Source: a virus
Length of the DNA: 29,408 nt
Strand: one strand, 5' to 3'
IMG/VR virus record: IMGVR_UViG_3300043540_000020
Span: 1 to 29,408 of that record
Part shown: positions 1,940 to 27,684 of the stretch, piece by piece
Layout: each line of letters opens with the position of its first letter
How positions within the stretch are numbered: the stretch's first letter is position 1
Translations under genes and position numbers: made by a program
Notes under the pieces: model-generated
Databases searched by the model: none
What the model was told of the DNA's origin: nothing
The model's input: only the letters and a program-made list of their open reading frames with translations

Positions 1940-3007
1940 TTACGAACCGACTCGCTTAAGGATTTCGGTAGCGGAAAAGAACTTCTCTGTTAGCATTTTT
2001 CTTTGTGGTCCGCAGAACTTTTGCCAATTGGAATAATTGTGCATCATTGCATTGATTCTGTCTTCCAAGTTGGTTCTGAACTGCAAATAGTGTTCATAAT
2101 CCTTTGTCCACTCGCTTGGATAGCGCAAAGCGTCAGAATACATTTCAGCATAGCTCAGTCTGTCGGGCACAAGTGGTAATGCATCCACAATCCAACCTTC
2201 ATAACAACCAATACCTAGTGTTTCTTGCAAACTTGCGGAGAAAACAATCTTTGCTTCTCCCAGCAGCGCATGATATTGATCCTTTGTGAGTGTATGGTCT
2301 TGGCAAACAACCCATTCATACTGCGGATTACGCGCAGCCAGGTCTCTAAAGATTTCTACTTGCTTCTCCGGAGCAATTCTGTGTGGGAATACGATAAGAT
2401 CACGCTTCTTCATGCCCTTCCACGGAGTTAGAACTGATTCCATATACTCCATTGGCCATCCACTGCGGACAATCTTGCCAGTCTTTCTGTGCATGTCAGT
2501 CCAAAGTGTTGGTGCAGCATCCGGCCCAAATGTCTTTGCAAACAGTTGAATATGAAACTCTGTCGCAAAGTAATTATGATCGATAGCATCGAAGAAACTT
2601 TCTTCTGCCTTCCTGACCCAGGGCTTGTTACCAATCAAACGACCAAGAAAATCGTGTGGATCATAGCTACCTGCGTGCCAAAGTGCATGAATAGTTACAG
2701 GAATCTGCAACAATTCACTCATATATTTTAGATTAACAATGCCGGGGTGCCAAGCATCTGTAAACAGGAAGTGATCTCCTGCTTTGATCTTACCCTCGCA
2801 GAACATTCTTCCCATAATCTCTACTTGGCGTGCCTTGTAGACATTTGTACCACCGAAGTTCAGGAATGCACCAGGTGTTGTTGCTTTAGGAATATCGTTC
2901 GGCCCCTCGATAATCACTGCATCCCCGAACAGGGTCGGCACGTGGGTTTTCCACTGCCCTGTGTATCGGGTATCAACTGCTTCGATGTCTACAATGTAAA
3001 CAGTCAT
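1940..3007 (-). CDS. GT-B glycosyltransferase (GT4-like), 355 aa
   Basis: Probably transfers a sugar from a nucleotide-sugar donor. The C-terminal half shows the glycosyltransferase-4 pattern: a VFPHRIAPEKQ segment (phosphate-binding Arg/Lys), WVVCQDH ending a strand, and SASLQETLGIGCYEGW followed by PLVPDRLSY, equivalent to the donor-binding E-x7-E region. The N-terminal half holds LFTDAWHPG and IHALWHAG, as expected for an acceptor-side Rossmann domain. There is no signal peptide. The start at 3007 overlaps the preceding TGA by one base (TGATG); the frame is open 13 codons further but that would overlap the upstream gene without need. Together with two sugar-type dehydrogenases upstream it suggests modification of DNA, virion protein or host surface by a phage-made sugar. 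Acceptor unknown. Confidence 0.85.
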   Translation of the reverse strand: MTVYIVDIEAVDTRYTGQWKTHVPTLFGDAVIIEGPNDIPKATTPGAFLNFGGTNVYKARQVEIMGRMFCEGKIKAGDHFLFTDAWHPGIVNLKYMSELLQIPVTIHALWHAGSYDPHDFLGRLIGNKPWVRKAEESFFDAIDHNYFATEFHIQLFAKTFGPDAAPTLWTDMHRKTGKIVRSGWPMEYMESVLTPWKGMKKRDLIVFPHRIAPEKQVEIFRDLAARNPQYEWVVCQDHTLTKDQYHALLGEAKIVFSASLQETLGIGCYEGWIVDALPLVPDRLSYAEMYSDALRYPSEWTKDYEHYLQFRTNLEDRINAMMHNYSNWQKFCGPQRKMLTEKFFSATEILKRVGS

Positions 3008-3522
3008 CAAAGTTCTACCGGAGTGTCGCCAACATAGTCTTTCCAAGAAGTATATGTGGCTCTTGTCATCAATTCGCTAAGTGGATGGCACCATACGCCA
3101 GGATTTGTGTCACCCCAGGTGTTGTCGTCCAATTTCAATGTTGCATTGTAGTTGAATGCCTTGATATTTGGAATCTTTACCGAAATCATTGGGATGAACT
3201 TGTGATGATCGTTCCAATCATACACGGTAATTTCGCTTGCATAGGATACATCGAAGTCCAGTGTAACCCACAAGTCATTACGCAGCAAACCGTCAATGAA
3301 ATCGTCCCAGTCTTCCCAATCCGACTCGTTAACTGGCTTGAAACACTGGCTTGTACCTAGATAGATATGCTTTGAGCCAACTTTCTTAGCCAAAGCAACG
3401 ATATCTGTAACTGGCTTAATGCCAACAACGAAAAGAGTATGTTCTCCCTTCATCGGTGTGTTTTCTACTTCAATGCCAGTAAAGAAATCTACTAACTGGC
3501 GGCCTTCTGTATTTAGATCCAT
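3007..3522 (-). CDS. conserved phage protein, 171 aa, unknown function
   Basis: An alpha/beta-looking soluble protein. TLFVVGIKPVTDIVALAKK (about 29-47) looks like a strand-helix unit, followed by HIYLGTSQCF, WVTLDFDVSY, FIPMISVKIP and a C-terminal NPGVWCHPLSELM segment. I recall similar proteins beside glycosyltransferase genes in cyanophage-type T4-like genomes, but know no assigned function. It starts one base after the dehydrogenase stop, with GTGGAA as a modest ribosome site, and its TGA overlaps the glycosyltransferase ATG, so the two are likely translated together. A role in the same sugar-transfer pathway is an inference from this arrangement only. Confidence 0.8.
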   Translation of the reverse strand: MDLNTEGRQLVDFFTGIEVENTPMKGEHTLFVVGIKPVTDIVALAKKVGSKHIYLGTSQCFKPVNESDWEDWDDFIDGLLRNDLWVTLDFDVSYASEITVYDWNDHHKFIPMISVKIPNIKAFNYNATLKLDDNTWGDTNPGVWCHPLSELMTRATYTSWKDYVGDTPVEL

Positions 3523-3523
3523 G

Positions 3524-4453
3524 TTATTTCCACTCTATGTAAGCCCGACCGAAGCCAGGTTGTCTGTTTTTACTGTCCGAAAAGGCATTTTGCCATTCTG
3601 TGTCTCTATCGTAACCTCTTGTCCAAAATTTATCTACGTTGATCTGGTTCTGCTCAACTAATTGGGCAGCTAATTCCATACTCTTAGTAAATGATGGTGC
3701 TCTTGGACTTGGAAATACGATTGTGCAAGCCTTCCAAAGCAAGCCCTGAAATGTTGTCCTGACCGGAGTAGTCTTTTCGGTACACATGATTACCAAAGCA
3801 CCGTTGTTGCAATAGTCGCCCGATACTGCAAGGTCTGTATCAACCAAGTCGATAATGATATCGTACAAACCCGACGGATAACCTTTCAATTCGACACCCA
3901 AAGACTCCCACAGGTCCTTATTACTTCTGCCAACAACATCAATCTGCATTGGAAGATCGTATTTGATTGTGTGCTTAATGGTTTGGTAGGCAACATAAGC
4001 AAGAAATCCGGAACCAAGGATCAGAATCTTGCTCTGCTTGTTCCTTGTTACCCTATTCTTGAATAGTTGTATTTCCTGCATGACAACATTGATACCGCAT
4101 GCTACAGGCTCAAGGATGAAACGTGGATGAGCAGCAGGAACCTTCACAAATTCCCCATGCCTTACGTTGTAGAAGTCTGCGTAAGCAGGCTCACCCCGCG
4201 TAGCTACAAAATCGCCTACTTTTACCAAATCTTTCAGGCTGTGCCCGACTTTAGTAACTTGTCCAAGCCCTTCGTGGCCTTGCATGTGCAAAGGTAGTGG
4301 GCCGAAGTTACCTTCCATCATGTCAACGTCGCTTCTGCAAACGCCGGTCATAATGGATTTGACTTCCAGCTCAACAAAGCTGGGGTCCGGCTTATCCCAT
4401 TCAGTTTCCTTAAATGATCCGTCTCCTTCAGTGTGAAGTAATCTTACTTTCAT
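3524..4453 (-). CDS. zinc-type alcohol/polyol dehydrogenase (MDR family), 309 aa
   Basis: Medium-chain dehydrogenase/reductase, probably NAD(P)-dependent oxidation of a sugar or alcohol. Catalytic-zinc features are present: Cys39 in GVCRSD, His60-Glu61 in MQGHEGLG, and Glu115 in EPVACGINVV. The Rossmann glycine motif is LILGSGFLAYVA (about 144-155). The four-cysteine structural-zinc loop of classical alcohol dehydrogenases is missing, and the protein is about 30-40 residues shorter than usual, so it is a compact member. The start overlaps the Gfo/Idh stop as ATGA, giving a coupled pair of oxidoreductases. With the downstream glycosyltransferase it looks like part of a sugar-nucleotide or sugar-modification cassette. 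The substrate cannot be read from the sequence. Confidence 0.85.
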   Translation of the reverse strand: MKVRLLHTEGDGSFKETEWDKPDPSFVELEVKSIMTGVCRSDVDMMEGNFGPLPLHMQGHEGLGQVTKVGHSLKDLVKVGDFVATRGEPAYADFYNVRHGEFVKVPAAHPRFILEPVACGINVVMQEIQLFKNRVTRNKQSKILILGSGFLAYVAYQTIKHTIKYDLPMQIDVVGRSNKDLWESLGVELKGYPSGLYDIIIDLVDTDLAVSGDYCNNGALVIMCTEKTTPVRTTFQGLLWKACTIVFPSPRAPSFTKSMELAAQLVEQNQINVDKFWTRGYDRDTEWQNAFSDSKNRQPGFGRAYIEWK

Positions 4454-5388
4454 ATTTCGCTAACCATCCTGTGAATCCATAGATCAATTTCGTATTGGTT
4501 GACCCAGAACACAGCAGTATTTAGATTGTCGAAACAATCTTGGATCATATTCTTGTATGCGTACTCTGGACATAGGCCCAATTCGTACTTGACTTCCTCT
4601 TCTCCCAAGTCAAACACAATGTTTCGTTCGTCTGCGTCGACTGTTCTCCAGTCTGCCTCGAGTCTGATGAATCTTTCTGGGATACCATCGTGTTTGTACA
4701 TGTTGAAATCCAGCCAAGCAACATCATCTACGTTGTAAATGCCGTTTGCATTCACTGTTCCGTATTCTGTGCTCACCAAATCATACAATGACCACTCGCG
4801 TTCCTTGCCATTTCCAGTAACATCAAGCTCTTTGTATGTTTCTGGGAATAGTGCTACCACTAAACTCAACAAATGTGGCATCAAATCGCGACTCACACCA
4901 CCGAAAGCCAAGTCTTTTGTAGTGAACCAAGTACCTGGACCCGGAACACGGTCAAAATTCAACCAATTTAGGTGGATTGCACGGGATGCATATGCTGATT
5001 GTTGCATTTCTTTGATGTTATCACGCCACATATTGTTCTTTACCATCATAAATCTGGTCTCTGGGAACATTCTCTGGAGTGCTTCTAACCGTTCGGCCGA
5101 CTTCAGACCCGGCTTTTCAATGAAAACAATCTTTGCATAGGGTGCAATCTGTTGTGCAATGGCTTCATGGGTCCAATTCGGCGTACAGATATGAGCTGTG
5201 TCAATCTGTTGCAAAGGTCGGCCAGTTTCTACAAGAGAATCGATGGCCCCACCCACTGTAAGCCAGTCTGCCTTCTTTGCCGGATCCCTATCTACTGTGT
5301 AAACCGTAGATCCAAGTTCCTTTAGGACACCTTTGTACAATTGACCAATGCCCATACCTATAACTAAGGATTTTTTAATAGATGCCAT
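4450..5388 (-). CDS. Gfo/Idh/MocA-family oxidoreductase, 312 aa
   Basis: NAD(P)-dependent oxidoreductase typical of sugar and inositol dehydrogenases. The N-terminal Rossmann domain carries VIGMGIGQLYKG (9-20) and an acidic residue ending the second strand (TVDRD). TPNWTHEAIA (69-78) and the hallmark Glu91-Lys92-Pro93 in FIEKPG follow. The C-terminal domain includes GGVSRDLMPHLLSL, resembling the catalytic GG..D..xH segment. Length is slightly below the usual 330-390. It overlaps the upstream small gene by 14 bases and the downstream dehydrogenase by 4. The pairing of two dehydrogenases of different folds next to a glycosyltransferase suggests successive oxidation of one sugar substrate, an inference from order only. 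Confidence 0.88.
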   Translation of the reverse strand: MASIKKSLVIGMGIGQLYKGVLKELGSTVYTVDRDPAKKADWLTVGGAIDSLVETGRPLQQIDTAHICTPNWTHEAIAQQIAPYAKIVFIEKPGLKSAERLEALQRMFPETRFMMVKNNMWRDNIKEMQQSAYASRAIHLNWLNFDRVPGPGTWFTTKDLAFGGVSRDLMPHLLSLVVALFPETYKELDVTGNGKEREWSLYDLVSTEYGTVNANGIYNVDDVAWLDFNMYKHDGIPERFIRLEADWRTVDADERNIVFDLGEEEVKYELGLCPEYAYKNMIQDCFDNLNTAVFWVNQYEIDLWIHRMVSEI

Positions 5389-7606: not shown

Positions 7607-9310
7607 ATGAAAATTACCCATATTGATACCGCTGATATCTTTGAAGAATTTCAGCAAAGATTCGAGAGTTCTCCAGAGGCCGCACCAGTTTGGCAAGTCG
7701 GGCAACATGCTCTAACACATATCGGCGGAAAGTGGTTGCCGTGCGTTATTACAAAACCGCCTCACAAAGAAACCGGTAATTATGGAGTTCGCTTCAAGCA
7801 CGCTGGAAAAACATTCAATACTGTTTCCAGCTTAGAACAATTGAAGCCAATGACTGAGGGTGGAATCGGCGGTGGGTCTCTTGGTCAAGGCATCAATCAG
7901 TGGAACACAAATAATCCGGTAAGTTATGAACACGTTCTGGACGAAGTAGAAAATACTGTTCTGGAACAATTTGCTGAATGGATGGCTGAACAAAGTATTA
8001 ACGAACTCAGCGTGGACAAGATGCAAGCATACAAAGACAAGGTATCTTCACCACAAACCTTTAGAACTCGTCAGCTGGGCAAATTGCCTAAGGGCGTAGA
8101 GGGAAAGGCAGCAGCAACCCGCAAGATTAACGCAAAAATGGGCAATCGTATGGCTGCTCCAGCCCAGGCTCGTGCTACATACGAGGAGAGACTTGCAGAG
8201 TTTACAGAGCTAGACGAGGCCCCATTCGACCCTAATGAATTTAGCGACATCCTGGGTAAGCAACATGCCGAACAACAGGCCGCAAAGAAAATGCCTGTCA
8301 AGGATATTCCATTCCACAACTGGACTATTCGTTACCGTCCTGCTTCGAAGCCTGGCGAGAAAGTCCAATGGCAAGTAATGGACAAGAAGGGCGATGTAAA
8401 GGGTAGGGGCGAAGCAATGTCCGATAAGGAAGCTGTTGGTGCTGCCGAAGATTACATCAAGAAGGGAACCGATACACGCCAACAAGCTACCGACAAGGTT
8501 ACTATTGACTTCAATGTAAACTTCACAAAGGAATTTGGAGATGAATTCTTTGCGAACATTATTGCAGATAATTCCGGTCCAGCACTTTTGATTGCATATC
8601 AACAAGAACCTGGAATGAAGCGCAGCTATGCACGTAACCAGAAAGAAAAGATGACTGCAACAACCACCAAGTTGACTTGCATCCCAATGAGTGCTAAGGA
8701 AGCAAACGATGCTGGCCTACAGCCAAACGGCCGTTATATCCTAGGCGATAAGCAAGACATGGGTGAATATGCAATGTTCCCACTCATCTACCAAAGCACT
8801 GTTCAAGGCAAGGGCGACATGATGAAAATGGGCAAGCCTGGACTAACTGTTGCCCACAACCGTGATGTGGCAGAAGATTGCTGGGATGGATATAAGCAAC
8901 TTGGAATGAAAGACAAGGACGGTAAACAAGTTCCTAACTGTGTTCCAACTGAAGAAGAAATCGAGGAAGCATACGAAGGTCCTTGGCATGGAGATCCAGT
9001 AAAGAATGCTAAGTCTCCAAAGAGCTCTATGCAAGGCGCTGGAGATGTCCGCCTAAGCGATATGATTAAAGACACCATTGATACACACGGTGTAAAATGG
9101 GCCTTTGAATACTACGTCAAGAAGCACGGCATGCCTCCAAGACACTTCCAAATCCTATCGGGTCTTACTGCTAAACCAGCAGCAAAGAAACCAGAGCAGA
9201 AGCCATCCGCACAAGTTCTTCCATTCCCACAGAAGAAGCCTGCTCCAGCACAGCAGCCTGATAAAAAGGGTTGGTGGGCTAGCATGATGGACAAGCTAGC
9301 AGCAGAATAA
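7607..9310 (+). CDS. probable internal virion/structural protein, 567 aa
   Basis: Function not recognised. The only plus-strand gene, it has its own late-type promoter, an AAGGAG site 12 bases before the ATG and a strong terminator just after the stop, as for an abundant virion protein. The N-terminus (about 25-82) contains a small basic beta-rich segment (KWLPCVITKPP, YGVRFKHAGK). A DCWDGYKQLG...PNCVP motif (about residues 423-446) resembles peptides I recall in virion or capsid-core proteins of marine T4-like phages. A Pro/Ala/Lys-rich linker (about 520-553) leads to a C-terminal KKGWWASMMDKL helix. PMTEGGIGGG near residue 83 resembles a prohead-protease site (hydrophobic-x-Glu). No catalytic motif or membrane segment is seen. 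Confidence 0.75.
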   Translation: MKITHIDTADIFEEFQQRFESSPEAAPVWQVGQHALTHIGGKWLPCVITKPPHKETGNYGVRFKHAGKTFNTVSSLEQLKPMTEGGIGGGSLGQGINQWNTNNPVSYEHVLDEVENTVLEQFAEWMAEQSINELSVDKMQAYKDKVSSPQTFRTRQLGKLPKGVEGKAAATRKINAKMGNRMAAPAQARATYEERLAEFTELDEAPFDPNEFSDILGKQHAEQQAAKKMPVKDIPFHNWTIRYRPASKPGEKVQWQVMDKKGDVKGRGEAMSDKEAVGAAEDYIKKGTDTRQQATDKVTIDFNVNFTKEFGDEFFANIIADNSGPALLIAYQQEPGMKRSYARNQKEKMTATTTKLTCIPMSAKEANDAGLQPNGRYILGDKQDMGEYAMFPLIYQSTVQGKGDMMKMGKPGLTVAHNRDVAEDCWDGYKQLGMKDKDGKQVPNCVPTEEEIEEAYEGPWHGDPVKNAKSPKSSMQGAGDVRLSDMIKDTIDTHGVKWAFEYYVKKHGMPPRHFQILSGLTAKPAAKKPEQKPSAQVLPFPQKKPAPAQQPDKKGWWASMMDKLAAE

Positions 9311-9336
9311 AAAAAGGGCCCCGGAGGGCCCTTTTT
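9311..9336 (+). terminator. strong intrinsic terminator, probably bidirectional
   Basis: AAAAAGGGCCC, a 4-base loop, then GGGCCCTTTTT: a perfect 6-bp GC stem flanked by A5 and T5, immediately after the plus-strand gene's TAA. The symmetric A/T flanks would also stop transcription from the facing nadV relic. Confidence 0.88.
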
Positions 9337-9354
9337 ATTGCTTTTTACGGCAAT

Positions 9355-9658
9355 TTACCGAGCAGGTTGCTTGGCACGTTCACGGCTTTCCGTGAACGTT
9401 GTTTCGTTGTAAGCCTTTCCGTCCATGTAGCGACGGACCAGCTGGTAACCGTGCTGTGCTCCATGGCAGGAATGCTGAAGCCGCAGACTTCTGCGTCATG
9501 GTATTCCATTGCAGCCATGATGCCCGACACAGTGTCAGTGCCCATGAAGTTCACCAGGTGGGCATGCCACTCGGGCCTGCGCTTTCCAGGTTCGACACAC
9601 CACGCGCACCGAAGTCATGCAGCTTGAAGTCGATCAGCGACGGGTCGCCATTCGACAT
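9355..9658 (-). pseudogene. nadV: nicotinamide phosphoribosyltransferase (nadV) relic
   Basis: Intact NadV/NAMPT (about 460-490 residues) makes NMN from nicotinamide for NAD salvage, and some large phages carry it. Only pieces remain, in three frames. Piece one (9658-9551) reads GDPSLIDFKLHDFGARGVSN then LESAG and hits a TGA. Piece two (frame entered near 9560, down to about 9438) reads AHLVNFMGTDTV, then SIPAMEHSTVTSW, the conserved substrate-site region. Piece three (about 9443-9355) reads LVRRYMDGKAYNETTFTESR then ERAK and a stop, resembling the NAMPT C-terminal tail. The N-terminal third and roughly 200 residues between pieces two and three are missing. At least two frameshifts are needed, so the gene is dead. 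Bases here look more GC-rich than in the neighbours. The rest of the 617-base gap holds the amber-broken ORF and a terminator. Confidence 0.85.
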
Positions 9659-9872
9659 AGGATTCCCATTGTTCCTTGATTGCCCTGAAGGCTTGCAGCA
9701 GCCAACAAAACACCGAGAAGAGGACCAGAATCAAGGTGGCAAGCAAGGCCTTTGCTCCGAGGGTAAGGCCCGAAACGGCAGACTATACAAACAGACTAAT
9801 CAACACTGTTGCAGTCTTTTCAGACGCATCAAGATTTGTCCACCACCAATTCAAAAATCTAAACAGTTCCAT
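9615..9872 (-). pseudogene. small membrane-protein ORF broken by an in-frame TAG
   Basis: From ATG 9872 the frame reads 29 residues (MELFRFLNWWWTNLDASEKT...) to a TAG at 9783-9785, then stays open another 55 codons to a TGA at 9615. The second part has a clear membrane helix (ALLATLILVLFSVFCWLL, about residues 42-59 of the joined frame) followed by a polar helix AIKEQWESYVEW. It reads as one former 84-residue membrane protein. Its last codons overlap the nadV relic, so the original 3' end may have been lost in the same deletion. TAG is a normal stop elsewhere in the window (end of the 11712-12503 gene), so recoding is unlikely. Separate translation of two short pieces cannot be excluded. Confidence 0.6.
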
Positions 9873-9927: not shown

Positions 9928-10593
9928 TTAAGGCTTAGTGCTTGTCGGAAAAGGATACATAGCCACTTCCGGTGGCTTCGGAAAAGGTTTTGGTAATTCC
10001 AGCTTCTCCGTTACAAACTTGTCTCGGAAATTGGCAGCAATGAATTTACCCTTGGATTCTGCTTCGTAGAATTCCCAGAACAGATCGTGCGGAATTCCAA
10101 AATATTTGTAGTACCCACCGTTCTTGAATTTGATAATCAGATCACCATCCGTCCAATGAAAATCTTTCCCTGTACCTTCCGTTCTGCCCGCCCAATGGTA
10201 ACCCGAAACAGAGCTACTGTTTTTCACGGGGTTCAGGCGATTCGGAACAGGGCCCTTAATCATCTCGGCAGGATATGCCTTGAAGAACCAGTGGCCCCAT
10301 TCTGCTGGAGTAACATCAGATTGAAGACCGTGAACCCAGAACCCACCTACTTCTTGCTGACCATATTGTGGGTTCATGGGATATTGGCGATAGTTACGTT
10401 CCCATTCGAAGTCTATAGTTCCTTCCCAGATCACCTTTGTAGGATCTGCTGGGTCGAAAACAGTAAGGTAGTCGCCGTCGGCCAAACAGTTCAGTCCATC
10501 GTAGCCCTCGCGGCCATCTTCATAAACTGACCAGATAATTCCCTCCGTCCCTGTTTCAAAGAACGGTTCCAGCTTTCCCTTAATTGTTGTCAT
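9928..10593 (-). CDS. KTSC-domain phage protein, 221 aa
   Basis: Two parts. Residues about 8-115 (EGIIWSVYEDGREGYDGLNC, then GDYLTVFD and IWEGTID) form a beta-rich domain that I recall as widespread but uncharacterised in phages. Residues about 126-195 match a KTSC domain: SSVSGYHW, DLIIKFKNGGYYKYFGIPH and an FYEAESKGKFIAANFRDKF end; KTSC resembles the C-terminal part of lysyl-tRNA synthetases and may bind nucleic acid. A proline-rich tail follows. The ATG overlaps the phosphoesterase stop as ATGA, with AGGACATTCAA before it. It is the last gene of the run driven by the promoter at 12525. Molecular role unknown. Confidence 0.82.
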   Translation of the reverse strand: MTTIKGKLEPFFETGTEGIIWSVYEDGREGYDGLNCLADGDYLTVFDPADPTKVIWEGTIDFEWERNYRQYPMNPQYGQQEVGGFWVHGLQSDVTPAEWGHWFFKAYPAEMIKGPVPNRLNPVKNSSSVSGYHWAGRTEGTGKDFHWTDGDLIIKFKNGGYYKYFGIPHDLFWEFYEAESKGKFIAANFRDKFVTEKLELPKPFPKPPEVAMYPFPTSTKP

Positions 10594-26277: not shown

Positions 26278-26492
26278 TGTATAATGTCGTTTATGTTTAG
26301 ATGGATTTTGTCTAACAGGCTGTTGTAATGTTTCCTGGACTTCATACCTTTTTTCCAGGATTGGATAACTTGATTCTTGATTCGTTGGACGTTGATGTCA
26401 TCTTTGGCGCCGGCCTTCAGGGTGTGCAATAGCTTAATGTACTGATCGGATTTTAGTACATCGTTCAAATCAACAAGTTCATCAAGTCTCAT
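26274..26492 (-). CDS. small helical protein between two nucleotidyltransferase genes, 72 aa
   Basis: Entirely helical-looking and basic in its middle: LDELVDLNDVLKSDQYIKLL, then INVQRIKNQVIQSWKKGMKS, ending LLDKIHLNINDIIQ. No known family. Its ATG lies 11 bases inside the end of the ligase-like gene and its TGA overlaps the Pol-beta-type start as ATGA, so all three are probably translated in sequence from one mRNA. The lysine/arginine-rich centre could bind nucleic acid. A bridging subunit for the two enzymes is an attractive but untested inference. It lacks the R-x4-6-H motif of HEPN toxins. Confidence 0.7.
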   Translation of the reverse strand: MRLDELVDLNDVLKSDQYIKLLHTLKAGAKDDINVQRIKNQVIQSWKKGMKSRKHYNSLLDKIHLNINDIIQ

Positions 26493-27684
26493 TTTCTATA
26501 TCTCTCAATTGCTTACCCAGGAATACCATAATCATCTCTTCGATGTTATTGGATTTTTCCAGGCCTTTTTCCATAGTGTCTAATAGAGCGAAAAAGGTAG
26601 CAAATGTTTCTTTCGTCCGCTGTATGCTAGTGGGCGAATAGCCGTGATTGAACACCTTTATCTCTTCCTCATATTTATCTAGTCTTCGAGAAAGAATACT
26701 TCGTGTCTTCCGTACAGTAAACAACCAATGCGGCAATCTTGTAGTACCGTCCATGAGGTATGCAAGTCGTTCTTCCGTATTTTTTCCCATACTTCTGAGG
26801 TATTTCTTGGCCATAATAGTGCCAAGTACGTCGTGGCCCAGGTCTGTTGCTATGTCAACTAACATTCTACCAAGAATGCTGTTTACATATTTCGGACTGC
26901 GTGGATACTCCATTAGCTCATCTCTGTGCTTCCACTGATGATTCTTCTCAGTAAGGAAGACATCCTTATCCACTACTTTGAATCTATGTCCGGTGACAGG
27001 GTTTACAAGAACAATGCCTTCAATCCACCCGTCGCTAGGTCCGAATGCACTAGGTGTCATCCTGACAAATTGTTCAAGTATGGTATTCTTAACCTCGGCA
27101 GGATCCCTAAGTCTGGAAACGTGAGTTGGGATTTTGTTGGGTATAACAGGAGTTCTGGAAAATTTCCAAGTATTCTCAACTGTCTTATAAAAGATGTCGC
27201 GGCCATTCGGAGAGAACGGGGTCATAATGGAAATGTTTAGTGAGTGACCATCAAGCTTCTGCTTGAGTTGGTCAATATCAACAGTTCCTTCTGTTGTGCG
27301 AAGGAAAATGATGTAACTGGTGTCGGCCGAGTATGGTACCACGTTTGGTACTTCCCCGTACAAGACTTCTGCCTCGACCTGATCTCCTGGTTCGAGACCG
27401 GCACTTTTCAAGTGTGTCAATACACTTTCTAACACAATATGCGCAGAGCGCTTATACGTGTTAGAAAATGTAACCCCGTATTCTTCCACATTATAGACTC
27501 TACCACCACCGTGTGTTTCACGTGATGTATAGAATCCTTTGTCGTCTATACCAAACAATATTTCGGAACCATCGACTTTTTCAGTAATCTCATATTCTGC
27601 AATGCGTTCCATTGCATTTTGAAACTCTTTTACAGGAAGATCTTCGATATGCGGTATACCTCGTGATCTTCCTGTTTTAGTCAT
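26482..27684 (-). CDS. ligase-superfamily nucleotidyltransferase (RNA-ligase-like), 400 aa
   Basis: Covalent nucleotidyltransferase motifs appear in order: motif I EKVDGSE with Lys36 as the predicted AMP-bearing lysine and Asp38-Gly39, motif Ia near Arg55 (YTSRE), motif III VEAEVLYGE with Glu104, motif IV IEGIVLV with Glu222, and motif V FKVVDK with Lys236. GIPHIEDLPVKEF at the start recalls RNA-ligase-like proteins of cyanophage-type T4-like phages. The C-terminal 150 residues are a helical domain without a recognised OB fold, which argues for an RNA-ligase type rather than a DNA ligase. GGAAGG lies before the ATG, and an ATGA overlap joins the upstream gene. Probably joins or adenylylates RNA ends; substrate unknown. 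Confidence 0.85.
   Translation of the reverse strand: MTKTGRSRGIPHIEDLPVKEFQNAMERIAEYEITEKVDGSEILFGIDDKGFYTSRETHGGGRVYNVEEYGVTFSNTYKRSAHIVLESVLTHLKSAGLEPGDQVEAEVLYGEVPNVVPYSADTSYIIFLRTTEGTVDIDQLKQKLDGHSLNISIMTPFSPNGRDIFYKTVENTWKFSRTPVIPNKIPTHVSRLRDPAEVKNTILEQFVRMTPSAFGPSDGWIEGIVLVNPVTGHRFKVVDKDVFLTEKNHQWKHRDELMEYPRSPKYVNSILGRMLVDIATDLGHDVLGTIMAKKYLRSMGKNTEERLAYLMDGTTRLPHWLFTVRKTRSILSRRLDKYEEEIKVFNHGYSPTSIQRTKETFATFFALLDTMEKGLEKSNNIEEMIMVFLGKQLRDIENET

Follow-up and report, generated by a model that had tools for sequence, protein, structure and literature searches.

Probable remnant of a NadM-NadV NAD-salvage locus in a large phage

Phage NadV combines nicotinamide with PRPP to give NMN, which NadM then adenylylates to NAD, as stated in excerpts of two reports (PMC9503650, PMC7824862). 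Restoration of NAD counters NAD-depleting defences, and the second pathway of this kind was named NARP2 (excerpt of PMC12300627); the family is described as restoring NAD during infection and countering NADase defence (excerpts of PMC12300627 and PMC9503650). NadV was reported for 33% of jumbo phages, and all NadM-bearing phages also carried NadV (excerpt of PMC9503650). NARP2 homologues are core genes in Schizotequatroviruses (excerpt of PMC12028318), and nadV/natV has been described for Vibrio phage KVP40 (excerpt of PMC6715854). In NARP1 (Adps and Namat), the catalytic core of Namat is Nampt-like (excerpt of PMC12774641). No decayed phage nadV was named in the open-licence PMC literature, among the matches listed.

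The window, that is, the whole stretch of DNA analysed here, makes up an entire virus record, linear and 29,408 bases long. Most probably it represents part of a jumbo-phage genome, because three related contigs (IMG/VR sisters) have lengths of 363-385 kb and one structural protein of the window resembles its counterpart in PA5oct-like jumbo phages (29% identity). Like NARP2, which we take to be the NadV-NadM pair, the locus holds NadV sequence in the form of relic pieces, and its sisters carry NadM and NadV close together at the same place; unlike NARP2, the window is without NadM, and its NadV lies in three out-of-frame pieces from which no enzyme is possible. The operon regarded as ancestral was found at the orthologous locus in eight of eight contigs that hold both flanks, and the NadM-NadV neighbourhood was absent from the window. 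The intact nadV genes of L092, L105 and L108 (IMG/VR) have the same neighbours as the relic (86-95% identity to piece 2, 83-87% to piece 1); unlike the relic, intact sister nadV is a single open frame of 460-462 aa. The Nampt-like core of Namat is a point of likeness to NARP1, whereas the partner gene in the sisters is NadM-like; because of this partner, the ancestral locus would be of the NARP2 kind.

The relic lies in a 617-nt stretch between a KTSC-domain protein gene (9928-10593, minus strand; PF13619), whose homologue is found 5' of NadM in many sisters, and a convergent gene for a 567-aa protein (7607-9310, plus strand), which in many sisters stands 3' of nadV on the opposite strand. This stretch is the largest gap between the frames taken as genes; the next-largest is 119 nt. 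Apart from this stretch, 37 such frames cover the window without leaving any gap longer than 119 nt. The window has no N bases. A two-way hairpin resembling an intrinsic terminator was found by consensus scan between the relic and the convergent gene (9311-9336). Used as single-protein queries against the viral contigs, the KTSC and 567-aa neighbours gave no relatives, and 12 kb of the window gave no match to phage genomes by megablast. Elsewhere in the window, a 400-aa protein (26482-27684) showed a weak RNA-ligase match (PF09414, E 0.0027, under the cut-off), and among ten window proteins scanned with PADLOC there was a single weak match (the 1940-3046 protein, E 3.6e-4, 22 residues).

Three NAMPT-like pieces were located in three frames on the minus strand at 9355-9652, and homology of the relic to the sisters starts at about 9653. 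Piece 1 (NGDPSLIDFKLHDFGARGVSNLESAGPSG; 9566-9652, minus strand) corresponds to sister NadV codons 163-191 and has 25 of 29 residues in common with NadV of L092. Between pieces 1 and 2 there is a one-base frameshift (9562-9566, minus strand), seen as a two-base codon and as the single gap in blastn against L091/L092; among nine NadV references it was placed at 9562-9565 by six and at 9592 by three. Piece 2 (AHLVNFMGTDTV...EHSTVTSW; 9438-9563, minus strand) matches PF04095, corresponds to sister codons 193-234 and is identical to L092 at 40 of 42 residues and to L093 at 41 of 42. Piece 3 (QLVRRYMDGKAYNETTFTESRERAKQPAR, followed by its own stop codon; 9355-9444, minus strand) is the C-terminal tail, from about codon 432 to the stop, and was assigned by sister matches: 19 of 28 residues are identical to L105 and likewise to L111 (against L105, 72% over 25 residues, E 7e-7). 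About 200 codons are lost between pieces 2 and 3. At this internal junction the two pieces overlap by 7 nt (9438-9444, minus strand), the shared bases reading as TSW in piece 2 and as QLV in piece 3; TSW is encoded by all six sisters compared, and QLV stands at the 3' side in L096. The internal deletion is likely to have occurred between short direct repeats.

In place of a complete frame of 460-490 aa with NAMPT_N, the relic thus consists of three pieces in three frames, and NAMPT_N (PF18127) had no match anywhere in the window. Piece 2 retains the EHST motif; the part of the gene in which relatives have RPDSG has been deleted. We take EHST to contain the catalytic His and RPDSG to be the PRPP site. 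Judged from the sequence, the pieces cannot encode a working NadV enzyme, because the RPDSG region and the N-terminal domain are missing.

The identity of the relic was established by several comparisons. PF04095 matched the minus strand at 9408-9563 (E 1.1e-7, 26 bits, above the cut-off). By blastn, the relic matched nadV of 14 phage records (60-80% identity, best E 2e-14) and, more closely, the sister contigs L091/L092 (83% identity over 217 nt with one gap, E 2.4e-58). The frameshift-tolerant alignment to NadV proposed in the preliminary description was run against nine phage NadVs and gave scores of 169-235. For a control, the NadV of one reference, X1, was aligned with 46 further 631-nt stretches of the window; the maximum was 52, versus 216 for the relic with the same NadV. 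The alignment bridged to the C-terminal piece in one of the nine references (BcepSaruman), after a gap of 204 residues, and closer sisters matched this piece directly. By sequence homology the relic belongs to the NAPRTase/NAMPT family. NAMPT segments in three frames, a missing N-terminal third (codons 1-162 are absent) and the loss of about 200 residues between pieces had been noticed in the preliminary description, and all of these observations were borne out.

Synteny gave the decisive evidence. Relatives were collected by a scan with the relic peptide (457 relatives, of which the best 80 were kept as loci). The flanking genes of the window are common to 18 of these 80 loci (L091-L098, L100, L101, L103, L105-L108, L111, L144 and L145). 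As far as each contig extends, and with some genes missing in some contigs, the shared order is nrdA, nrdB, several small genes, PPase, KTSC, NadM, small ORFs, NadV, the convergent gene, lysin, thyA and folE. Among the best 80 of 457 loci, nadV is an open frame of at least 430 aa in 73, cut in six and broken in one (L097). Contigs were also chosen independently of NadV, by scans anchored on nrdB, lysin and folE. Both flanks are held by eight distinct contigs (L096, L255, L267, L271, L306, L309, L416 and L420), and NadM and an open NadV lie between the flanks in every one of them; L352, which had passed the automatic two-flank filter, was set aside as not belonging to the sisters, its two hits being a 64-aa protein and, 145 nt away, a lysin match of 38%. 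In the same scans, nadV is uncut by a contig end in 16 contigs and open in 15 (the one-flank contigs among these are L307, L310, L312, L313, L257, L266 and L408). The sixteenth is L097 with its broken nadV, and in L268 the gene is cut by the contig end. The distance between the flanking matches is about 4.1-6.8 kb in the eight sisters (taken from PPase in two, and to lysin in one) versus 617 nt in the window. A single PF04095 (NAPRTase-family) gene, at this locus, was found in each of ten sister records, most of which are fragments; a second PF04095 row for L291 is part of the same frame.

Two observations on the sister contigs are added here. In L097 (8190-8985; IMGVR 3300033114_000049) there is a frameshift near nadV codon 257, with the NadM frame open, which represents either another lesion of a milder kind or an error in the sequence. 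L092, L098 and L100 have an nrdA match of only 25% and no nrdB match, versus at least 80% in other sisters, which suggests that the ribonucleotide reductase has been exchanged in part of the clade.

The damage extends beyond nadV. A small membrane-protein gene (9653-9872, minus strand) was recognised by tblastn (E 7e-7 to the L091/L092 ORF between KTSC and NadM) and by alignment; the profile for this family had been trained on a set that included the window, so the score of the window was circular and tblastn was relied on. The gene carries an in-frame TAG at 9783-9785, and its usual C-terminal tail is gone at the junction, where nadV sequence follows directly. Recoding of TAG was ruled out: 37 frames are open under table 11, one of them ending in TAG, and nine homologues of the membrane gene without a stop at this site further contradict it. 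No similarity to NadM was detected in the window at E 0.01. When the ORFs between the flanks of seven sisters were compared with the window, only the membrane gene, KTSC/PPase parts and NadV matched at E 0.01; nadM and the small genes after it have left no detectable trace. The membrane proteins encoded 5' of NadM form a fast-evolving family of about 90 aa (start approximately MEFLRFIKWWW, end approximately IVxRLxG), present in tandem copies in several contigs (L092:6154-6719, L278:4275-4850, L279).

In an nrdB tree of 56 rows, the window grouped with L252, L251 and L253 (100/99 support). The contigs of these three, the closest by nrdB, end before the locus. The group lies inside a 41-row set (93/88, with the fork open) together with the NadV-bearing L267, L257, L268, L271, L291, L255, L096 and L266, and the simplest reading is that nadV was lost in the lineage of the window. 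The proposal that an ancestor had NAD salvage and that the lineage lost it is therefore supported by NadM and NadV at the same position in the sisters and by the nrdB tree, with its fork open; the loss of NadM and the small genes, the damage to the membrane gene and the apparent recency of the event had escaped the preliminary description.

Selection was analysed over 71 codons with 12 sisters chosen by hand from 23 loci. The nonsynonymous share was 0.25 between relic and sister (median, 12 pairs) and 0.24 between sisters (66 pairs), versus a neutral share of 0.77 (mean of 500 simulations); dS was saturated in six of the 12 relic-sister pairs. Because the share in the relic is close to that of the sisters and far from the neutral value, most of the divergence would have arisen under selection. 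At sites identical in the 12 sisters, the relic has four private changes, two of which are immediately beside the frameshift and may result from the position assigned to it; the corresponding count is 0 in ten sisters, 1 in one and 2 in one. Inactivation looks recent, because the remaining sequence still shows purifying selection, and first signs of decay appear to be present. The lesion was observed in one contig; among the viral contigs, from which very close records may be missing, no second one with the deletion junction at 9438-9444 was found.

A four-gene cassette is found elsewhere in the window, at 1940-5388 (glycosyltransferase-like, unknown, ADH-like with the N-terminal Pfam domain only, and MocA-like oxidoreductase). 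The order MocA-ADH-unknown-glycosyltransferase, with about 50% MocA identity, recurs in many of a separate set of 80 viral loci, and in L391, L393, L396, L413 and L419 the cassette is directly followed, as in the window, by folE (82-85% identical to that of the window). Cassette and folE may have been acquired together from another phage group. A MocA match was found in one of the 19 sister records (L145, elsewhere in the contig, 40% identity); of the 19, all but L251, whose contig ends before the locus, bear nadV. Conversely, PF04095 was found in none of 40 searched records sharing this MocA gene (40 of that separate set of 80 loci). This rare co-occurrence is offered as a lead only. A causal link between the cassette and the loss of nadV is not claimed; the comparison is confounded, with different phage groups and mostly fragments.

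Other origins of the observed structure were weighed. The window is a metagenomic contig, and an assembly or amplification artefact, by which an operon intact in the phage was misjoined in the contig, would fit the internal junction, where the overlap is short, as in some amplification chimeras; L097 is an example of a nadV frame broken in a contig. We consider such an error improbable. The k-mers commonly used in assembly are much longer than the overlap of about 7 nt, and the lesions, namely two deletions, a frameshift and the nonsense codon of the neighbour, are clustered at one spot and accompanied by private substitutions at invariant sites. The indel error rate of the contig looks low, because the 37 frames tile the rest of the window; the whole window is free of N. 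Base composition suggested that an already incomplete gene might have been acquired by horizontal transfer and had no function at any time in this lineage: GC is 57% at 9345-9644 versus 44.5% in the window, and this excess of 12 points is slightly more than the 3-10 points by which nadV exceeds its locus in 23 sister loci. The missing PF04095 in all records searched with a MocA gene points the same way. Sister nadV genes are, however, likewise GC-richer than their own loci, which weakens the idea of a foreign fragment; the relic stands at the position of the intact gene in the sisters and adjoins the remains of the membrane gene that precedes NadM; and the top one among the listed bacterial matches has 79% over 42 residues (best 80 of 231), whereas phage contigs reach 98% (best 80 of 457). 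Transfer as a fragment is largely refuted by synteny and is judged very unlikely.

Two further explanations accept the decay and differ in its consequence. NAD salvage might persist because the genome encodes, at another site, a second nadV or an alternative route such as NARP1, so that no function was lost. Only about 29 kb of the genome has been seen, versus 363-385 kb in three sister records, which leaves room for such a gene; the single PF04095 gene of the ten sister records at this very locus, albeit mostly in fragments, makes it unlikely. Retention of the remnant for a new role, as a regulatory RNA or a short peptide, would be in keeping with a perfect 10-bp inverted repeat with a 4-nt loop inside piece 3 (9376-9399), for which ten sisters pair 5-7 of 10 positions, and with a match of the Rfam MicX model to 9301-9405 (plus strand, E 3.8e-4). 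All five Rfam matches are far under their gathering scores (MicX, 28 versus 75) and centred on the terminator hairpin, and the pieces have no common open frame; a new role is accordingly judged very unlikely. The repeat itself may be the product of a template switch that corrected a quasi-palindrome.

The relic is best explained, at a probability of about 0.87, as what is left of an NAD-salvage locus of the NadM-NadV (NARP2) type that a large phage has recently lost. The remains are those of an ordinary dead gene, a decayed copy from a known pathway. One deletion would have begun in the 3' end of the membrane gene, taken out nadM and ended near nadV codon 162, and another would have removed approximately codons 235-432 between short repeats; the one-base frameshift and the nonsense codon in the membrane gene would have been added at some time. 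When intact, NadV would have made NMN from nicotinamide and PRPP and NadM would have converted it to NAD, restoring the NAD destroyed by NADase defences. A host change or replacement by another gene had been suggested as possible causes in the preliminary description. The simplest guess is that the pathway became dispensable in a host without NAD-depleting defence, or because the phage encodes a different counter-defence in another part of its genome.

Descriptions of phage NAD-salvage genes usually record presence or absence; at this locus a recent loss can be seen in detail beside intact sister loci. Short PF04095 matches in phage contigs should accordingly be treated with caution, as they need not amount to working NAD salvage. 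For the clade as a whole, a bolder and rather doubtful proposal is that an NAD-restoring counter-defence was nearly fixed and that one lineage shed it recently, when selection for it vanished or was taken over, maybe together with the gain of the MocA/ADH/glycosyltransferase cassette. The locus allows one to ask when a counter-defence becomes dispensable.
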